NCBI RefSeq assembly: GCF_000960975.1
Contig: NZ_CP010803.1
Location: forward strand, 4,061,818-4,125,817
Source: Martelella endophytica
GTDB taxonomy: Bacteria; Pseudomonadota; Alphaproteobacteria; Rhizobiales; Rhizobiaceae
Direction of reading: 5' to 3'
DNA: 64,000 bases
Made by a program: the position numbers and the translations under genes. This document shows positions 33,529 to 43,835 of the stretch, piece by piece (within the stretch, counting starts at the first letter, position 1; each line of letters begins with the position of its first letter). The notes below the pieces were generated by a model. That model had not been told where the DNA came from. It searched no databases and saw nothing but the letters and a program-made list of their open reading frames with translations.

Positions 33529-34191
33529 ATGCAATACCAACCGGAAATGCCGGACCAGGATATCCAGGACCTCGATGACCATGCCCTGCAGGGAAACCTG
33601 GGCAGGCTGCGCGGATCGCGGATCCTGATCGTGGAGGACGAATACCTGATCGCCCGAAACCTTTCCCGCACCTTCGAAAAGGTCGGAGCCCGCGTTCTGG
33701 GTCCCGTTGCCTCAATCGCGCAGGCGATCCCGCATCTCGGCAAGGCCGATGCCGCCGTCCTCGACATCAACCTCGACGGCACGCCGGTGTTTCCGCTGGC
33801 GGATATCCTGCACCAGAACCACACGCCCTTCGTGTTCTTCTCCGGATGCGCCGAGATCGTCATCCCAGATCGCTTCCGCTTCATCAGTGCGCTACCGAAA
33901 CCGAACGGCATCCGCGAGATCATCGCCTCTCTCGTTTCGACCTATGATCGCCCGGGAACGGACAGTACCCGCGATGAAGGCGAGGACGTAACGGCACTCG
34001 TGCCAAGCCTGCGGCTCGCGGCGCGTCTATTGATCACCGACGATGCGGCCGCCGACAGGCTCGTCGAACGGACGCTCGAGCACGCGATCACCCATGTGGA
34101 CGACAAGCCCGCCGATGCCTCACGCCTCGAATGGCTGCTTTCGGCGCTCGAGGACATGCGCCTGAACGACGGCCGGAGCGTTTTGAACTAG
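33529..34191 (+). CDS. Response regulator: N-terminal receiver plus C-terminal sigma region-2-like segment
   Basis: A 220-residue protein. The receiver (about 30-138) has the acidic pair E36-D37 in VEDEYLIA, the phospho-acceptor D79 in AVLDINLDG, Ser105 in FVFFSGC and Lys124 in ALPKP, close to the FAT-GUY type of receiver that works with HWE kinases. Residues 157-211 align without gaps to region 2 of the island's own ECF sigma factor: LxPxLRxxAR, ADxLVxxT, IxxxD and WL, 16 identities in 55 by eye. No region 4 follows. PhyR has sigma-like domain first and receiver last, so this order is reversed. It may titrate a NepR-like anti-sigma factor; that is inference. Confidence 0.8.
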   Translation: MQYQPEMPDQDIQDLDDHALQGNLGRLRGSRILIVEDEYLIARNLSRTFEKVGARVLGPVASIAQAIPHLGKADAAVLDINLDGTPVFPLADILHQNHTPFVFFSGCAEIVIPDRFRFISALPKPNGIREIIASLVSTYDRPGTDSTRDEGEDVTALVPSLRLAARLLITDDAAADRLVERTLEHAITHVDDKPADASRLEWLLSALEDMRLNDGRSVLN

Positions 34192-35177
34192 GCCCCGCCC
34201 GGTCCCGCCGATGCCTTGGTGACGGGCACTTGGCGTTCGACCCAGATCTTCTGGACGAGCACGAAGGCGACGACCGTCAGCGGTGCGCTTAGCAGAAGGC
34301 CACCGACACCGAGCAGCGCGCCGAAAGCCAGAACTGCGAAAATCATCACACCCGGTGGAATATGCACCGACCGTTTCTGGATCAGCGGCGCGATCAGCAC
34401 GCCTTCTGCCTGCTGGATCACCAGATAAAGCAAGACCACCCAGACGGCATCCCAGATGCCGCCGGTCAGCGCCACGGCGATGGCCGGAACGGCGCTGGCG
34501 ATCGGTCCGATATAGGGCACGATCTCGAGAACGCCGGCAATCAGCCCAAGCGCGAAGGCAGATGAGATGCCGAGGCTGACGAGCCCCGCCGTGGTCAACA
34601 CGCCGATGATCACCATCGCCACGAGCTGGCCGGCAAACCAGTGAAAAAGCGCATTCGAAAGCGCCGAAAGCAGATCGTCGACCCTGGCCCGCGCGCGCAT
34701 CGGCGCCAGAGCCAAGAGACCGCGCCGATAGACCGCCGGATCCACCGCGAAGTAGATCCCGCCCGCGACCATCAGCAGGGTTCCGGCCGCCGCGGAAACA
34801 AGACCTGTCGAAAAGCCCGTGATGTTGCCGACCATTGCGCTGTCCCCGATGAGAGATTGTGCGTGGGCGCCGATCCAGTCTTCCAGTTCACCGAGGTCGA
34901 TATAGTCGCTGACGTCCGACATCGTCTGCGGCAGTTCACCAGCAAGCCGCGTCATTTCGGATGCAATGCGAGCGCCGAGGAAAAAGAAAAAACCCGAGAG
35001 CGACAGAGCAAAGATCAGCACCGTGGCGATCAGGCACAGCCGGTATCCGATGCCGGAGCGCTTGCTCAGCATCGCGGCGGAGCGGACAAGCACCAGCGCG
35101 ATCAGGCTCGCCCCCAGCACCATCAGAAGCAGATTGGCGAGTTTCCAAGCGACAAGCGCGAGCAACCCAAGCGCCAC
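34188..35177 (-). CDS. AI-2E-family (PerM-like) membrane transporter
   Basis: A 329-residue membrane protein with seven to eight hydrophobic segments and the AI-2E signature ALGLIAGVLEIVPYIGPIASAVPA followed by WVVLLYLVIQQAEGVLIAPLIQ. The start given (GTG, 35177) cuts into a likely longer N-terminus. The reading frame stays open upstream, with a typical TRRGLLLPNIVAV leader, to an ATC at 35243 that has GGGAG just upstream, but no ATG, GTG or TTG is available there. Members export small organic molecules; the substrate is unknown. Confidence 0.85.
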   Translation of the reverse strand: MALGLLALVAWKLANLLLMVLGASLIALVLVRSAAMLSKRSGIGYRLCLIATVLIFALSLSGFFFFLGARIASEMTRLAGELPQTMSDVSDYIDLGELEDWIGAHAQSLIGDSAMVGNITGFSTGLVSAAAGTLLMVAGGIYFAVDPAVYRRGLLALAPMRARARVDDLLSALSNALFHWFAGQLVAMVIIGVLTTAGLVSLGISSAFALGLIAGVLEIVPYIGPIASAVPAIAVALTGGIWDAVWVVLLYLVIQQAEGVLIAPLIQKRSVHIPPGVMIFAVLAFGALLGVGGLLLSAPLTVVAFVLVQKIWVERQVPVTKASAGPGGA

Positions 35178-35684: not shown

Positions 35685-35709
35685 GGAACATTTCCCTGAA
35701 CGTCCTGTT
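35685..35709 (+). promoter_or_regulatory. EcfG-type promoter of the DUF892 gene
   Basis: GGAAC (35685-35689), 17-nt spacer, GTT (35707-35709), 36 bp before the ATG at 35746. Exact consensus. Confidence 0.82.
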
Positions 35710-36376: not shown

Positions 36377-37033
36377 CTATCGATCGTTGTTGTTCAGCTG
36401 CGATGCCGGGGAATCGAAATTGCCCTCGGGCCTGACCCGCAAGTTGTTCTGAACATGGGAGACGCCGGAGACGCTGTCGGCGCAGTCTTCGGCACGGCGC
36501 TTCTGCCGCCGGCCAATGACGTAGCCGTCAAGCGTCACTTCGCCATTTTCGACGGAGACGGAGATGTCGCTTGCGTCCAGTGTCGGTTCGTCGGTCAGGC
36601 GGTCGTGCACATCCTCGTTGATACGATCGTCGGAGCGTTTGTAGCCGCGCGGCCCCTTGCCGCTATGGTCGGCCTCGCGGCGCTGCTCGGCATCGTCATC
36701 GCCGAACCAGGACTGAACCTCGTCACTGGCCTTGTCCCAGAAATCTCGGTCATCGCGACCTCGGCCGCGCCTGCGGTTATCGCCGCCGCCGTAATATCGG
36801 TCCGAACGGGTACGGGCCGGCGGATAAAGTCCGGGAAAGACCGGATAACCGAATTCGTCGTAATCGGAATAATAGCGATCCTCGTCATAGCGTGGATTGC
36901 CTTCTCGGCCGCGACGATCGCCATAGCCGAGATCGTCGGTCTGCCAGTCCTCGTGCGCCGGGCGGCCGCGCCATGGGCGCGACGGCATGTTCCGCTCGCG
37001 ATCGCGCATCTGTCTGAATCTGTCGTCTGCCAT
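36377..37033 (-). CDS. BON-domain protein with Arg/Asp/Tyr-rich N-terminal region
   Basis: A 218-residue protein without a signal peptide. The first ~125 residues are low complexity and rich in Arg, Asp, Tyr and Gly. A BON domain follows (about 140-200): INEDVHDRLTDEPTLDASDISVSV and NGEVTLDGYVIGRRQKRRAE. Single-BON proteins with such charged leaders occur in rhizobial stress clusters and may bind membranes or associate with other proteins; no activity is known. GGGAG precedes the ATG at 37033. Confidence 0.85.
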   Translation of the reverse strand: MADDRFRQMRDRERNMPSRPWRGRPAHEDWQTDDLGYGDRRGREGNPRYDEDRYYSDYDEFGYPVFPGLYPPARTRSDRYYGGGDNRRRGRGRDDRDFWDKASDEVQSWFGDDDAEQRREADHSGKGPRGYKRSDDRINEDVHDRLTDEPTLDASDISVSVENGEVTLDGYVIGRRQKRRAEDCADSVSGVSHVQNNLRVRPEGNFDSPASQLNNNDR

Positions 37034-37074
37034 TTTTCTACTCCCTGTTTCCTCTTTTCTCGAGGTGGCGACCA

Positions 37075-37099
37075 AACAGGGAAACCGGCGCAATGTTCC
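37075..37099 (-). promoter_or_regulatory. EcfG-type promoter of the BON gene
   Basis: GGAAC (37099-37095), 17 nt, GTT (37077-37075), minus strand, 42 bp before the ATG. Exact consensus. It lies just downstream of the sigma factor stop. Confidence 0.82.
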
Positions 37100-37113
37100 T
37101 GAATTATTTGGCC

Positions 37114-37620
37114 CTATTGCGTTTCGCCGAGCTCCTCGAGCAGCAACTGGCGGGCCCGGTTGATGCGGCTCTTGACGGTACCGATGGCGCAGCCGCAAAT
37201 CTCGGCGGCGTCGATATAGCTTTCGCCAAGTACCATCACCAGGATGAACATTTCGCGGTAGTGCGGGGGAATGCGCGAGAGCGCATCCATCAGTTCCTGA
37301 CCGCGCATCGACCAGTCCTGCGTCGCATCATGCTGCGGCAAACCGGCAACGCAGTCCTCCGCCCCGGGCGCCTCGCGGTTCCTGGCCTTGATCTGGGTGT
37401 AGAAGGTGTTGCGCATGATCGTGAACAGCCACGACTTCAGCCGCGTTCCGGGCTTGAACTTGTCGAGGTTGGCGATGCCCTTCAGCATCGTCTCCTGAAC
37501 CAGATCATCGGCATCGTTCGGATTTCGGCAGAAGGTCCGGGCAAAGGCCCGCAGCGCAGGGATGAGATCGACAATCTCCTGGTGTTGCTGGCGCGTCAAA
37601 TCTTTATCGTGCTGGTTCAT
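37114..37620 (-). CDS. EcfG-like ECF sigma factor
   Basis: A 168-residue sigma factor. Region 2 (about 17-80) reads LIPALRAFARTF, NPNDADDLVQETM and LKSWLFTIMRNTFYT. Region 4 (about 108-160) reads LSRIPPHYREMFILVMVLGESYIDAAEI and GTVKSRINRARQLL. This is the EcfG type, which controls the general stress response in alphaproteobacteria through GGAAC/GTT promoters, exactly the sites scattered through this island. No anti-sigma gene adjoins it; a NepR-like ORF lies at 41595. Confidence 0.92.
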   Translation of the reverse strand: MNQHDKDLTRQQHQEIVDLIPALRAFARTFCRNPNDADDLVQETMLKGIANLDKFKPGTRLKSWLFTIMRNTFYTQIKARNREAPGAEDCVAGLPQHDATQDWSMRGQELMDALSRIPPHYREMFILVMVLGESYIDAAEICGCAIGTVKSRINRARQLLLEELGETQ

Positions 37621-37656
37621 CGCCAACTCCCTGGATACCTGTGATCCTCGGAGAGC

Positions 37657-37682
37657 AACGAACCAGGTAGCGCTGTGGTTCC
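37657..37682 (-). promoter_or_regulatory. Possible autoregulatory EcfG-type promoter
   Basis: GGAAC (37682-37678) with GTT (37659-37657) after an 18-nt spacer, one base longer than the other sites in the island, 37 bp before the sigma factor ATG. Confidence 0.45.
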
Positions 37683-37774
37683 TTACTTTCTGGCTGAACG
37701 TCGTTTGGCGCTCTTCCTGAACGTGAAATGGCGGTCGAGGCCGCCATTCTTTTCGCATGGTCCGGAAGGCCCGA

Positions 37775-38746
37775 TCAACCGCCGCCGGTGACCGGGAGCA
37801 CTTCACCGGTGATGTAGCTCGCCGTGTGCGACGATGCGAGAAAGACATAGGCCGGGGCCAGTTCCTCCGGTTGCGCCGGCCGTTTCATCGGTACCGATCC
37901 GCCGAACTGCGCGATGTCTTCCGCTTCCCGATCCGAGGGGTTGAGCGGCGTCCAGACCGGGCCAGGCGCGACGGCGTTGACCCTGATGCCGCGCGCGATC
38001 AGGCTGGATGCGAGCGAGCGGGTGAAGGCGTGTATGCCGCCCTTGGTGATCGAATAGTCGAGCAGCTGCGCCTTGCCGTGCAGGCCGACGACCGAACCGC
38101 TGTTCACAATCGCCCCGCCCTCGCCCATCTGCGGCACAGCGGCCCTGCACATATTGTAGAGACCGTAGAGATTGGTTTTCATCGTCTGGTCGAAATGCTC
38201 TGCCGAAAGGTCTTCCAGCTCATTCGCGTGGACCTGAAAACCTGCATTGTTGACCAGAATATCGAGCTTGCCGAGCGTGGTCACAGCCTCATCGACAAGG
38301 CTGCGGCAATAGTCGAGGTCGGCGATATCGCCGCGGCTCAGGATACAGCGGCGCCCTTCCGCCTCGACCGCACGCTTGGTCTCCTCGGCATCGGTATCTT
38401 CGGAGAGATAGGAGACGACGATATCCGCGCCTTCGCGGGCATAAAGGATCGCGACGGCGCGCCCGATGCCGGAATCAGCACCCGTGATGATCGCTACCTT
38501 GTCCTTGAGTTTTTCGGAGCCCTTGTAATACGGCGCGTCGTACATCGGGCGCGGCTCCAGCTCATGCTCCTGACCAGGTTTTGGCAGGCTCTGCTCGGGT
38601 AGCGGCGGCTCCGGATAGTTTCGGGCGCCTGCCTGCATAGCGCCACTGTTGCCCGATGACGTTCCACGCTGGTCGCGCTCGTGGATTTCCTCCTGGATAT
38701 CGCGCTGGTGATCCGCGGTCCGTTCGCTCGGTTGCTCGTTTGTCAT
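37775..38746 (-). CDS. Short-chain dehydrogenase/reductase of the YghA/YhdG-like stress group
   Basis: A 323-residue SDR. A hydrophilic N-terminal extension (~75 residues, with PEPPLPEQSLPKPGQE) precedes the Rossmann domain: the cofactor motif ITGADSGIGRAVA, NNAG, and the catalytic Ser, Tyr, Lys in VVGLH... and DYSITKGG. The long Gln/Pro-rich leader is typical of NADP-dependent SDRs linked to general stress. The ATG at 38746 overlaps the stop of the upstream small membrane gene (ATGA), so the two are one operon. Substrate unknown. Confidence 0.9.
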   Translation of the reverse strand: MTNEQPSERTADHQRDIQEEIHERDQRGTSSGNSGAMQAGARNYPEPPLPEQSLPKPGQEHELEPRPMYDAPYYKGSEKLKDKVAIITGADSGIGRAVAILYAREGADIVVSYLSEDTDAEETKRAVEAEGRRCILSRGDIADLDYCRSLVDEAVTTLGKLDILVNNAGFQVHANELEDLSAEHFDQTMKTNLYGLYNMCRAAVPQMGEGGAIVNSGSVVGLHGKAQLLDYSITKGGIHAFTRSLASSLIARGIRVNAVAPGPVWTPLNPSDREAEDIAQFGGSVPMKRPAQPEELAPAYVFLASSHTASYITGEVLPVTGGG

Positions 38747-38985: not shown

Positions 38986-39010
38986 AACAGGAAGAAGGCG
39001 TCGATGTTCC
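38986..39010 (-). promoter_or_regulatory. EcfG-type promoter of the small membrane protein-SDR operon
   Basis: GGAAC (39010-39006), 17 nt, GTT (38988-38986), minus strand. Back to back with the plus-strand site at 39034 (23 bp between -35 boxes). Confidence 0.82.
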
Positions 39011-39033: not shown

Positions 39034-39058
39034 GGAACAACCTTCGTTCAGATCAGTT
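39034..39058 (+). promoter_or_regulatory. EcfG-type promoter of the 39092-P450 operon
   Basis: GGAAC (39034-39038), 17 nt, GTT (39056-39058), 33 bp before the ATG at 39092. Exact consensus. Confidence 0.82.
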
Positions 39059-39091: not shown

Positions 39092-39358
39092 ATGGCCCCG
39101 TCCTTCCGTCGCTATTCAAAGGAAGCCGCAACCCGCGACACTGTTCTCCTGCGCGTCATCCAGCGCGGCGATCGCCCCGTCGGCTTTGTCGATTCGATCG
39201 ACTTTGGCAACGAGGACACGCCCTACTACCCGACCGAGGAACTCCCCATGCCCGACGCCATCCGCCTAGCGGAGAACCGCAACGACACCGGCGGACCGAT
39301 CATGGTCGAACTTGAGGAAGATGCCGAATGGAACCCGGAATGGGGCACGCTGGAATGA
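39092..39358 (+). CDS. Small acidic protein, unknown function
   Basis: An 88-residue soluble protein, basic at the N-terminus and acidic at the C-terminus (MVELEEDAEWNPEWGTLE). AAAGGAAAG precedes the ATG. The stop overlaps the P450 ATG (ATGA), so the two are an operon. No family is recognised. Being first under an exact EcfG-type promoter supports that it is real. Confidence 0.7.
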   Translation: MAPSFRRYSKEAATRDTVLLRVIQRGDRPVGFVDSIDFGNEDTPYYPTEELPMPDAIRLAENRNDTGGPIMVELEEDAEWNPEWGTLE

Positions 39359-40611
39359 ACGGGCTGCCGAAGCCATCGGTCCTCGAGGACAAGACCCTGT
39401 CGCTGCTGCGGGAGGGCTATCTCTTCCTGCCGCAGCGGCTTGCGCAACGCGAGCCGCCGATCTGGCGCACGCGGCTGATGCTGCGCGATGTCGTCTGCCT
39501 CGCCGGTCCCGAAGCCGCAGAGCTATTCTATGCCGGCGACACCGTCACCCGCCGTGGTGCAATGCCGGGTACGACGCTGCGACTGCTTCAGGACAAGCAC
39601 AGCGTTCAGCAGCTCGACGGAACGGCCCACCGCAGGCGCAAGGCGATGTTTGTCCGCATGCTGGTCGATCATCCCACGAGCGTCGATGACCTCTTGCTCC
39701 GGTTCAGGGACGCCTGGATTCGGAGGCTGCCGCAGTGGGAACAGCGGGGTCAAGTGAGGCTTTCCGAGGTCGCGGAGACTACACTCACCGAGGCGGCCCT
39801 CTCATGGGCAGGGCTGCCCGCCACCCGTCATGCCGTGATGCGCGACGCGCGAGCGCTTTCCGGCATGGTTGCCAATGCGGGACGCTTTGGCCCGCAAACC
39901 GCGCTGGCGCTGCTGCGCCGCAGCCGGATGGAAAAGCGTTTACGGGGAGAAATAACGGCCCTGCGGGCCGGTAGGCGGGCGGTCCGCGAGGGCGCGCCGA
40001 TCGCAGACATCGCCAGTCATCGTGACTGCGACGGCCGGGAGCTGCCCGCCTCCGTCGCTGCGGTCGAATTGCTGAATGTCGTGCGGCCGATCGTAGCCGT
40101 CGCCCGCTATGTCACCTTTGCCGGGCTGATGCTGCATCACAAGCCCGCCTGGCGCGAGCGTTTTGCCGATGGTAGCCGCGAGGGCCTCTCCCAGTTTGCC
40201 GAAGAGGTGCGGCGCTTTTCACCTTTCTTTCCCTTCATCGGCGGCGTCCTGACGCGTGAGGCCGAGATTTACGGCCATCGCCTCGAGCGAGGCCAATGGT
40301 TGCTGTTCGACCTCTACGGAACTTGCCACGATCCACGCTGGTTCAGCGAACCGCAGGACTTCCGTCCCGAGCGTGACCTGTCCTGGCAGAAGGACAAGAG
40401 CCGCTTTGTGCCTCAGGGCGGCGGTGACGCCACCCAATCGCATCGCTGTCCCGGTGAGAAGGTCACGGTTGCGCTGATTGCCGAAGCGGTGCGACTGATG
40501 ACGCATGAGATGACCTTTGACGTCCCCGCGCAAAACCTCGAAGTTCCACTCGCAACCGTGCCGACCGGCCCCGCGAGCGGCCTCCTTCTCGACAATATCC
40601 GCAGGCGCTGA
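39355..40611 (+). CDS. CYP152-like cytochrome P450 (fatty-acid peroxygenase type)
   Basis: A 418-residue P450. The haem-binding loop is FVPQGGGDATQSHRCPGEKVT with the thiolate Cys. The I-helix carries NVVRPIVAVARYVTFAG, where Arg-Pro replaces the acid-alcohol pair; this is the CYP152 hallmark, and such enzymes use hydrogen peroxide directly to hydroxylate or decarboxylate fatty acids without reductase partners. RRFSPFFPFIGG is also typical. It is co-regulated with a catalase in this island. The ATG overlaps the preceding stop. Confidence 0.9.
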   Translation: MNGLPKPSVLEDKTLSLLREGYLFLPQRLAQREPPIWRTRLMLRDVVCLAGPEAAELFYAGDTVTRRGAMPGTTLRLLQDKHSVQQLDGTAHRRRKAMFVRMLVDHPTSVDDLLLRFRDAWIRRLPQWEQRGQVRLSEVAETTLTEAALSWAGLPATRHAVMRDARALSGMVANAGRFGPQTALALLRRSRMEKRLRGEITALRAGRRAVREGAPIADIASHRDCDGRELPASVAAVELLNVVRPIVAVARYVTFAGLMLHHKPAWRERFADGSREGLSQFAEEVRRFSPFFPFIGGVLTREAEIYGHRLERGQWLLFDLYGTCHDPRWFSEPQDFRPERDLSWQKDKSRFVPQGGGDATQSHRCPGEKVTVALIAEAVRLMTHEMTFDVPAQNLEVPLATVPTGPASGLLLDNIRRR

Positions 40612-40968: not shown

Positions 40969-41169
40969 CTAGTCCTTGCGTTTTGTCTTCGGGGCGTCGG
41001 TCAGGTCGCGCTTGCGCGGATCCTTGAGATTTTCCCGCATAGCATCGCGATCCTTTTCGGGATCGTCCTTTGCGGGCCGATAAGCGCTCGGGCGGCTTTC
41101 CTCTGGCCCCTCCCAGCGCGGCCGTTCATCGCTTGTGCCCGGACGGGCGGCGGATGGCTTCCTGTTCAT
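40969..41169 (-). CDS. Small highly charged hydrophilic protein
   Basis: A 66-residue protein composed almost wholly of Lys, Arg, Asp, Glu, Pro and Ser, with no hydrophobic core, so it is probably disordered. AGGAGG lies 8 nt upstream of the ATG. An exact EcfG-type promoter sits 32 bp upstream. It looks like a hydrophilin-type stress protein, but no family is recognised. Confidence 0.65.
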   Translation of the reverse strand: MNRKPSAARPGTSDERPRWEGPEESRPSAYRPAKDDPEKDRDAMRENLKDPRKRDLTDAPKTKRKD

Positions 41170-41239: not shown

Positions 41240-41264
41240 GGAACAATAAATCGGGGTCATTGTT
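41240..41264 (+). promoter_or_regulatory. EcfG-type promoter with a ~330-nt leader
   Basis: GGAAC (41240-41244), 17 nt, GTT (41262-41264). Exact consensus, yet the nearest credible plus-strand gene starts at 41595. The stretch 41265-41594 has no convincing ORF and may be a long leader or a small RNA. Confidence 0.7.
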
Positions 41265-41594: not shown

Positions 41595-41771
41595 ATGGCG
41601 GAAGACGGTAACAATAGCCTTGGTGCGGCGAAAGATCCGGAATCCAAGCTGGACCGCAAGACGACCGAGTTGCTTTCCCAGATCAAGCAGGAACCGATCC
41701 CCGATCGGCTGCTGGAGCTTGCCATGAAATTGCAGCAAGCGCTGAACGAGCGGGAAACCAAGCCGTCCTGA
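41595..41771 (+). CDS. NepR-like anti-sigma factor candidate
   Basis: A 58-residue ORF. An N-terminal polar stretch is followed by a helix (KTTELLSQIKQ), the segment EPIPDRLLEL (residues 33-42) and a second helix (AMKLQQALNERE). NepR proteins are about 60 residues and carry a helix, then a [E/Q]PxPDRxxxL segment, then a second helix; they bind EcfG until phosphorylated PhyR releases them. The match is by motif only. An imperfect AGG site precedes the ATG. It shares the island with an EcfG-like sigma factor and a receiver/sigma-like regulator. Confidence 0.62.
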   Translation: MAEDGNNSLGAAKDPESKLDRKTTELLSQIKQEPIPDRLLELAMKLQQALNERETKPS

Positions 41772-42897: not shown

Positions 42898-42922
42898 AAC
42901 TGTGAGGCGCCGGCGATGTTCC
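42898..42922 (-). promoter_or_regulatory. EcfG-type promoter of the PRC-barrel gene
   Basis: GGAAC (42922-42918), 17 nt, GTT (42900-42898), minus strand, 82 bp before the ATG. Exact consensus. Confidence 0.82.
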
Positions 42923-42988: not shown

Positions 42989-43013
42989 GGAACAAAACCG
43001 GTGCGACCCGGTT
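42989..43013 (+). promoter_or_regulatory. EcfG-type promoter of small membrane protein genes
   Basis: GGAAC (42989-42993), 17 nt, GTT (43011-43013), 38 bp before the TTG at 43051. Exact consensus, divergent from the PRC promoter. Confidence 0.8.
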
Positions 43014-43810: not shown

Positions 43811-43835
43811 AACAGCGAAAGCCATCCCATGTTCC
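43811..43835 (-). promoter_or_regulatory. EcfG-type promoter of the DUF3008 gene
   Basis: GGAAC (43835-43831), 17 nt, GTT (43813-43811), minus strand. Only 5 bp separate it from the plus-strand -35 at 43841. Confidence 0.82.

Follow-up and report, generated by a model that had tools for sequence, protein, structure and literature searches.

A response regulator gene in Martelella endophytica, at positions 33,529–34,191 of the 64,000-nucleotide stretch of DNA that was analysed (here called the window), encodes a receiver with a sigma region 2 domain of the ECF/PhyR type behind it, at the C terminus. PhyR is the anti-anti-sigma response regulator of the general stress response in Alphaproteobacteria, and we consider it likely, from the domains of this protein and the genes that accompany it, that REC-sigma2, as we call it, acts as the antagonist in a second and smaller partner switch, as a shortened and inverted regulator of the PhyR type. 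At rest, a 58-residue NepR-like protein encoded in the same island would hold a non-canonical EcfG-type sigma factor. Phosphorylation of D79 in the receiver by an HWE kinase would free the C-terminal mimic of sigma region 2, which would then take the NepR-like protein away from the sigma factor, and the sigma factor thus released would transcribe the stress island around it from promoters of the GGAACA type. An earlier note on this DNA had suggested that this protein could be a second, minimal kind of partner-switching regulator, and its linkage to, and co-occurrence with, the NepR-like ORF and the EcfG-type sigma factor support that proposal; the mechanism is one that we infer.

A receiver followed by sigma region 2

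The regulator, its two domains and the kinase gene ahead of it lie as follows.

33529..34191, + strand: response regulator REC-sigma2 (receiver then sigma region 2), 220 amino acids as an ORF
33616..33939, + strand: receiver domain, residues about 30–137, with the Pfam match at 32–109
33988..34161, + strand: sigma region 2-like domain, residues about 154–211, three helices
30129..33236, + strand: sensor kinase with CheB, CheR, PAS and HWE kinase domains, HRxxN at residue 851

This order of domains is borne out by Pfam, by the profile of the family and, for the C-terminal domain taken alone, by an AlphaFold2 model, confirming what the earlier note had read from the letters. Both Pfam matches, that of the receiver and that of PhyR_sigma2 (PF22029) at residues 155–203 (E = 5.3e-5), score slightly below the curated cut-offs, and the best NCBIfam matches, to response-regulator and PhyR models at the front and ECF sigma models at the back, are all far below theirs. 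In an 86-row alignment E36, D37, D79 and K124 are invariant, so that the conserved acidic pair, the Asp and the Lys are all present, and D79 is the presumed phospho-acceptor; in the back half, R162, D176, L178, V179, E180, A186 and W202 are invariant. Since the relative on plasmid pMM593 has an annotated start 57 bases later, the true start of 33,529–34,191 is uncertain. The final four bases of the ORF overlap a gene for an AI-2E family transporter on the opposite strand (34,188–35,177).

The assignment of the C-terminus to sigma region 2 survived the tests set for it in advance, a fold prediction and a profile comparison. All 34 of the REC-sigma2 sigma domains match PF22029 at E ≤ 0.01. A fold search with the full-length AlphaFold2 model (pLDDT 68.9, with linker 124–151 under 50) was uninformative on the C-terminus, since only receivers filled the list, whereas a search with the domain alone matched sigma region 2; together with the profile, this rejects the unrelated helical domain that had been offered as an alternative. 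Aligned without gaps, the domain and the ECF sigma factor nearby do match, although with 15 identities in 55 positions rather than the 16 counted by eye, a value reached in 4 of 5000 shuffles. Given these shuffles and the profile matches, of this protein and of all 34 domains, chance similarity to region 2 was rejected. Region 4 has no Pfam match anywhere in the regulator ORF and the chain stops after region 2, which bears out its reported absence and rules out a region 4 concealed elsewhere in the ORF.

The LPxLRLxAR and DRLVExT motifs are retained in the domain; the F-x-GT loop and the RN-F segment of the ECF consensus are gone (5 of 34 relatives still have MRN). These losses and that of region 4 are as expected for a mimic that does not transcribe. 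DRLVExT lies in region 2.2, the polymerase-binding helix of ECF sigma factors, and is better kept here than in the PhyR consensus. The domain might on this ground bind core RNA polymerase, competing or cooperating with sigma factors under the control of phosphorylation, in the manner of split sigma factors, which do exist (SigO/RsoA; PMC8103513, in the portion available). We regard this as improbable, since F-x-GT, RN-F and region 4 are gone and the adjoining NepR-like ORF would be left unexplained.

A protein search found 501 relatives at E ≤ 0.001. Among the best 120 of these were proteins of Martelella, Mesorhizobium, Aquibium and Agrobacterium, with names such as 'response regulator', 'CheY-like chemotaxis protein' and 'hypothetical protein'. 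We fetched 79 loci from named genomes, with up to 8 kb on each side of the regulator; 31 have receiver and sigma domain in one ORF, and the other 48, with no sigma domain in the receiver's ORF at E ≤ 0.1, served as receiver-only controls. The full form occurs in Mesorhizobium (most loci), Shinella, Labrys, Rhodobacter, Tabrizicola, Pseudotabrizicola, Rhizobium and Ensifer, among other genera. In an even sample of the class (385 genomes), at least nine genomes match at E ≤ 1e-30 and at least four over the full length (G000, G055, G073, G300). Such distribution counts are lower bounds, with at most 8 candidates scored per genome in this sample and 21 in the family sample below, and the linkage counts are not independent, many loci being close relatives, mostly from Mesorhizobium.

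The reported HWE kinase gene does lie directly upstream of the regulator. Other proteins with a receiver ahead of sigma region 2 exist, but their proximity to HWE kinases is not specific: such a kinase occurs in 24 of the 31 REC-sigma2 loci versus 31 of the 48 receiver-only loci. The latter figure, and the fact that the nearest PDB chains to the receiver are 2lpm (E = 4.2e-15), which we take to be Sma0114, and 5ieb, SdrG (E = 5.1e-11), would suit a protein that is in effect a single-domain receiver, a phosphate sink or relay like SdrG or Sma0114, with its C-terminal domain a relic or a plain docking surface. Such a reading seems to us very improbable, as seven invariant columns in 34 sigma domains from several genera exceed what a relic would be expected to retain.

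The NepR-like ORF and the second EcfG-type sigma factor

The two other components of the proposed switch are encoded further along the island.

41595..41771, + strand: NepR-like small protein, candidate anti-sigma factor, 58 amino acids; both NepR helix segments align, with linker EPIPDR
37114..37848, − strand: ECFn, a non-canonical ECF sigma factor of the EcfG type, in which Pfam recognises both region 2 and region 4

The NepR-like ORF sits 7.4 kb from the regulator and scores 16.3 bits against a Pfam NepR cut-off of 25.7; across the genome, Pfam NepR at E ≤ 0.001 finds the canonical nepR only, and at E ≤ 1 it matches 6 of 32 NepR-like ORFs. Taken as a set, these 32 ORFs align by hhalign with eight canonical NepRs over 43 columns (probability 94.1, E = 1.3e-7), and the two top rows of a PDB profile search with the set are NepR (E = 0.053 and 0.071). 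This profile comparison shows the ORFs to be homologous to NepR and upholds the earlier identification of a NepR-like ORF in the island.

For linkage we used an HMM built from NepR-like ORFs of loci other than those scored, five from Martelella plus the one in L120. At ≥ 8 bits it finds a NepR-like ORF in 25 of the 31 REC-sigma2 loci versus 0 of the 48 receiver-only loci; at ≥ 5 bits the counts are 25 of 31 and 4 of 48. It found none in L005, L010, L011, L027, L034 and L060 (6 of the 31), and among loci fetched later it found one in L145, L196 and L198 and none in L146, L147, L197 and L199. In L016, L020, L021 and L022 the NepR-like ORF stops one base ahead of the regulator ORF. In L012, L015–L022, L024, L031, L039 and L145, inspection by eye picks out the second NepR helix segment alone, a reduction that appears to us to go in step with a regulator that has sigma region 2 alone.

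ECFn scores 60.7 bits for Sigma70_r2 and 52.8 bits for Sigma70_r4_2, both exceeding the Pfam cut-offs. Its true start is probably within the listed ORF, given that pMM593 carries a shorter relative. Over residues 89–240, ECFn and the canonical EcfG of the same genome share 43% identity.

In a sample of 13 genomes from the genus of the window, REC-sigma2 is present in five, and the same five hold the NepR-like ORF (E ≤ 1e-15) and the sigma factor (E ≤ 1e-85), with two of each gene in G012; all 13 also hold weaker matches at the level of canonical EcfG and NepR. This co-occurrence may reflect a single gain or loss of the island. More widely, an EcfG-type sigma factor is found at E ≤ 2e-45 in 16 of the 18 REC-sigma2 genomes searched (the exceptions being G439 and G440; the match in G435 is interrupted by a stop), and in 13 of the 15 places checked this gene and that of REC-sigma2 share a contig and are 8–27 kb apart. 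An ECF sigma gene falls inside the fetched stretch in just 5 of the 31 REC-sigma2 loci. At L145, in a genome of another order, sigma factor, REC-sigma2, NepR-like ORF and HWE kinase are side by side in a compact locus.

It is also possible that REC-sigma2 is an accessory PhyR, whose region 2 mimic binds the canonical NepR, or this as well as the NepR-like protein, and so tunes EcfG. The window's genome does hold canonical phyR, nepR and ecfG, and the 16 genomes with the second sigma factor also have a weaker, canonical-like sigma match. In the available part of a study of M. extorquens, NepR paralogues bound PhyR, which makes such cross-talk plausible, and showed no interaction with EcfG proteins (PMC4814048). 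We nevertheless think this role unlikely, because it is to the NepR-like ORF and the second sigma factor that REC-sigma2 is linked, and with them that it co-occurs.

The sigma factor also occurs without the regulator. In a sample of 151 genomes of one family, REC-sigma2 is present in at least six, the sigma factor (E ≤ 1e-42) in at least 36 and both in four; 32 of 145 genomes thus have the sigma factor without REC-sigma2, and only four of the six REC-sigma2 genomes have the sigma factor at this threshold. A NepR-like ORF is carried by 7 of 16 sigma stretches that lack REC-sigma2, so that this ORF may answer to canonical PhyR. Loci with a NepR-like ORF near a second EcfG-type sigma gene and no REC-sigma2 found are L200, L201, L202, L204, L210, L214, L215 and L120. 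Since the pair is also found without REC-sigma2, sigma factor and NepR-like ORF look like the core pair, with REC-sigma2 as the antagonist in some lineages, and NepR-like ORFs are candidate anti-sigma factors for orphan EcfG paralogues generally. A third arrangement, an EcfG-type sigma gene and a single-domain receiver with no NepR-like ORF found, was seen in L033, L035, L036, L052, L058, L064, L065, L080 and L081, mostly from Rhizobium and relatives.

Named plasmid examples come from Shinella zoogloeoides, Martelella mediterranea (pMM593) and Ensifer canadensis (pT173c), whose NepR-like ORFs score 39.0, 112.0 and 17.7 bits, respectively, that of pMM593 being identical to an HMM training sequence. 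In these three records the NepR-like ORF is a 'hypothetical protein', the regulator a 'response regulator' and the sigma factor a 'sigma-70 family RNA polymerase sigma factor'. In L216, L217 and L218, the named relatives of the island sit on large plasmids that also carry glycogen, trehalose, ferritin-like or SDR genes, so that the switch may be spread as part of an island for desiccation or osmotic stress.

Promoter-like sites in the island

Nine sites of the form GGAACA-N16-GTT lie between 35,685 and 43,811.

35685..35709, + strand: in the first bases of the listed DUF892 ORF, ahead of a likely later start
37075..37099, − strand: within the 5′ part of ORF 36377–37198, ahead of a likely later start
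38986..39010, − strand: within the 5′ end of the listed SDR ORF, ahead of a likely later start
39034..39058, + strand: precedes the 88-aa ORF 39092–39358 and ORF 39328–40611, a relative of which is annotated cytochrome P450
41202..41226, − strand: precedes the 66-aa ORF 40969–41169
41240..41264, + strand: the closest upstream of the NepR-like ORF, at about 330 bases
42898..42922, − strand: promoter-like site
42989..43013, + strand: promoter-like site
43811..43835, − strand: promoter-like site

These nine sites, in about 8 kb and among stress-type genes (DUF892, SDR, P450-like), all lack the C of CGTT. The window shows no enrichment of the canonical motif GGAAC-N15-19-CGTT (one site versus 2.40 expected), whereas GGAAC-N15-19-GTT occurs 20 times versus 6.75 expected, a count that none of 100 shuffles reached. 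The enrichment appeared only on loosening CGTT to GTT, and the GGAACA-N16-GTT and N17 forms were picked after viewing those sites. GGAACA-N16-GTT occurs 52 times in the genome (13 in the reversed control), with 13 of these in the window. The window has no exact site ahead of the regulator.

Applied unchanged to other genera, GGAAC-N17-GTT abounds in most of the islands: it occurs 240 times in the 31 REC-sigma2 loci versus 24 for the reversed control (484 kb), and 55 versus 6 times in the 11 receiver-only loci that have an EcfG-type sigma gene (166 kb); the 37 receiver-only loci without the sigma gene also have an excess (59 versus 16, 521 kb). A site 20–500 bases ahead of the receiver was found in 20 of the 31 REC-sigma2 loci versus 8 of the 47 receiver-only loci examined. 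None was found in L145, L146, L147 or L199, so that the compact locus L145 is without a site. Among 41 distinct sites from the window and L101–L105, 38 have the form GGAACAA or GGAACAT; a C precedes GTT in one of the 41 and in 13% of the 240 sites. The R. etli EcfG1 motif is given as GGAAC-N16-CGTT in the part of PMC3892343 that was available. The composition of the sites, noticed after the fact, hints that GGAACAW...GTT is a separate promoter class, and those of the island would be promoters of ECFn.

Several of these observations count against a second switch: sigma/NepR-like pairs without REC-sigma2, loci without a NepR-like ORF or sites, the weak Pfam NepR score, the 7.4 kb that separate the NepR-like ORF from the regulator, the lack of an exact site ahead of the regulator in the window, and the few stretches with an ECF sigma gene. 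The unspecific linkage to the kinase and the absence of promoter-like sites from L145 lower its odds slightly. We remain inclined toward the second switch. In a more far-reaching form, it would be insulated from PhyR–NepR–EcfG, with its own sigma factor and promoter class GGAACAW...GTT, an anti-sigma factor that in some lineages has only the region 2-binding helix, and a sigma mimicry newly assembled receiver-first and pared to region 2 alone; we put this forward tentatively, as possible but rather doubtful.

Origin and relation to known systems

Did REC-sigma2 arise from PhyR? In a quick tree of receivers (10 PhyR, 21 of 40 REC-sigma2 and 50 of 108 receiver-only rows), those of PhyR are separate, although an AU test fails to reject a clade of PhyR and REC-sigma2 receivers (p = 0.656), and the tree constrained to this clade has the better likelihood, so that the quick tree is not the optimum. 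For the sigma domains an AU test likewise fails to reject a PhyR and REC-sigma2 clade (p = 0.576), and the 40 REC-sigma2 domains form one side of a branch with support 100. The trees are compatible with either rearrangement of PhyR or new assembly. By title and start of abstract, we found no description of a receiver-first sigma mimic in the open-licence literature, which is not proof of absence.

Jans et al. (PMC3892343, in the part available) found extra EcfG-type sigma factors in roughly half of the completed alphaproteobacterial genomes that they surveyed. How such sigma factors are controlled is largely unexplained, and the locus offers a candidate anti-sigma factor, a candidate regulator and a candidate promoter motif. 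It thereby makes the question of their control testable, and it suggests that region 2 by itself can be enough for sigma mimicry. As with ECFn, R. etli EcfG2 is a second EcfG-type sigma factor away from the phyR-nepR-ecfG locus, a likeness that does not imply the same subgroup; for EcfG2 the available text reports that neither an anti-sigma gene nor a regulator gene is close by, and that the search yielded no promoter motif (PMC3892343).

The small ORFs resemble NepR in size and in having a P-x-R linker followed by an LxLAxxLQxAL segment. They differ in that the NepR-like ORF of the window falls below the Pfam cut-off and that several loci have only the second helix segment recognisable by eye. 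A particular NepR helix pairs with a particular sigma region, the assignment used here for the region 2-binding helix. In CnrY, two helices embrace regions 2 and 4, and the structure superimposes on PhyR–NepR (PMC4598750, in the part available). The single-domain receivers Sma0114 and SdrG are the closest solved receivers by sequence, but they have no sigma domain.

Like PhyR, REC-sigma2 combines a receiver with an ECF-like sigma region 2 and has a NepR-type protein and an EcfG-type sigma factor nearby, and it probably works like PhyR. By architecture it is not PhyR, as it departs from it in two defining features: PhyR has its sigma-like part at the N terminus and its receiver at the C terminus, an order that REC-sigma2 reverses (Pfam receiver at 32–109, region 2 at 155–203), and the sigma-like part of PhyR comprises regions 2 and 4, whereas that of REC-sigma2 is region 2 alone. 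Within region 2, REC-sigma2 reads DxLV and WLxxIM, as ECF sigma factors do, in place of the GDxYV and Lyr-FHa of the PhyR consensus.
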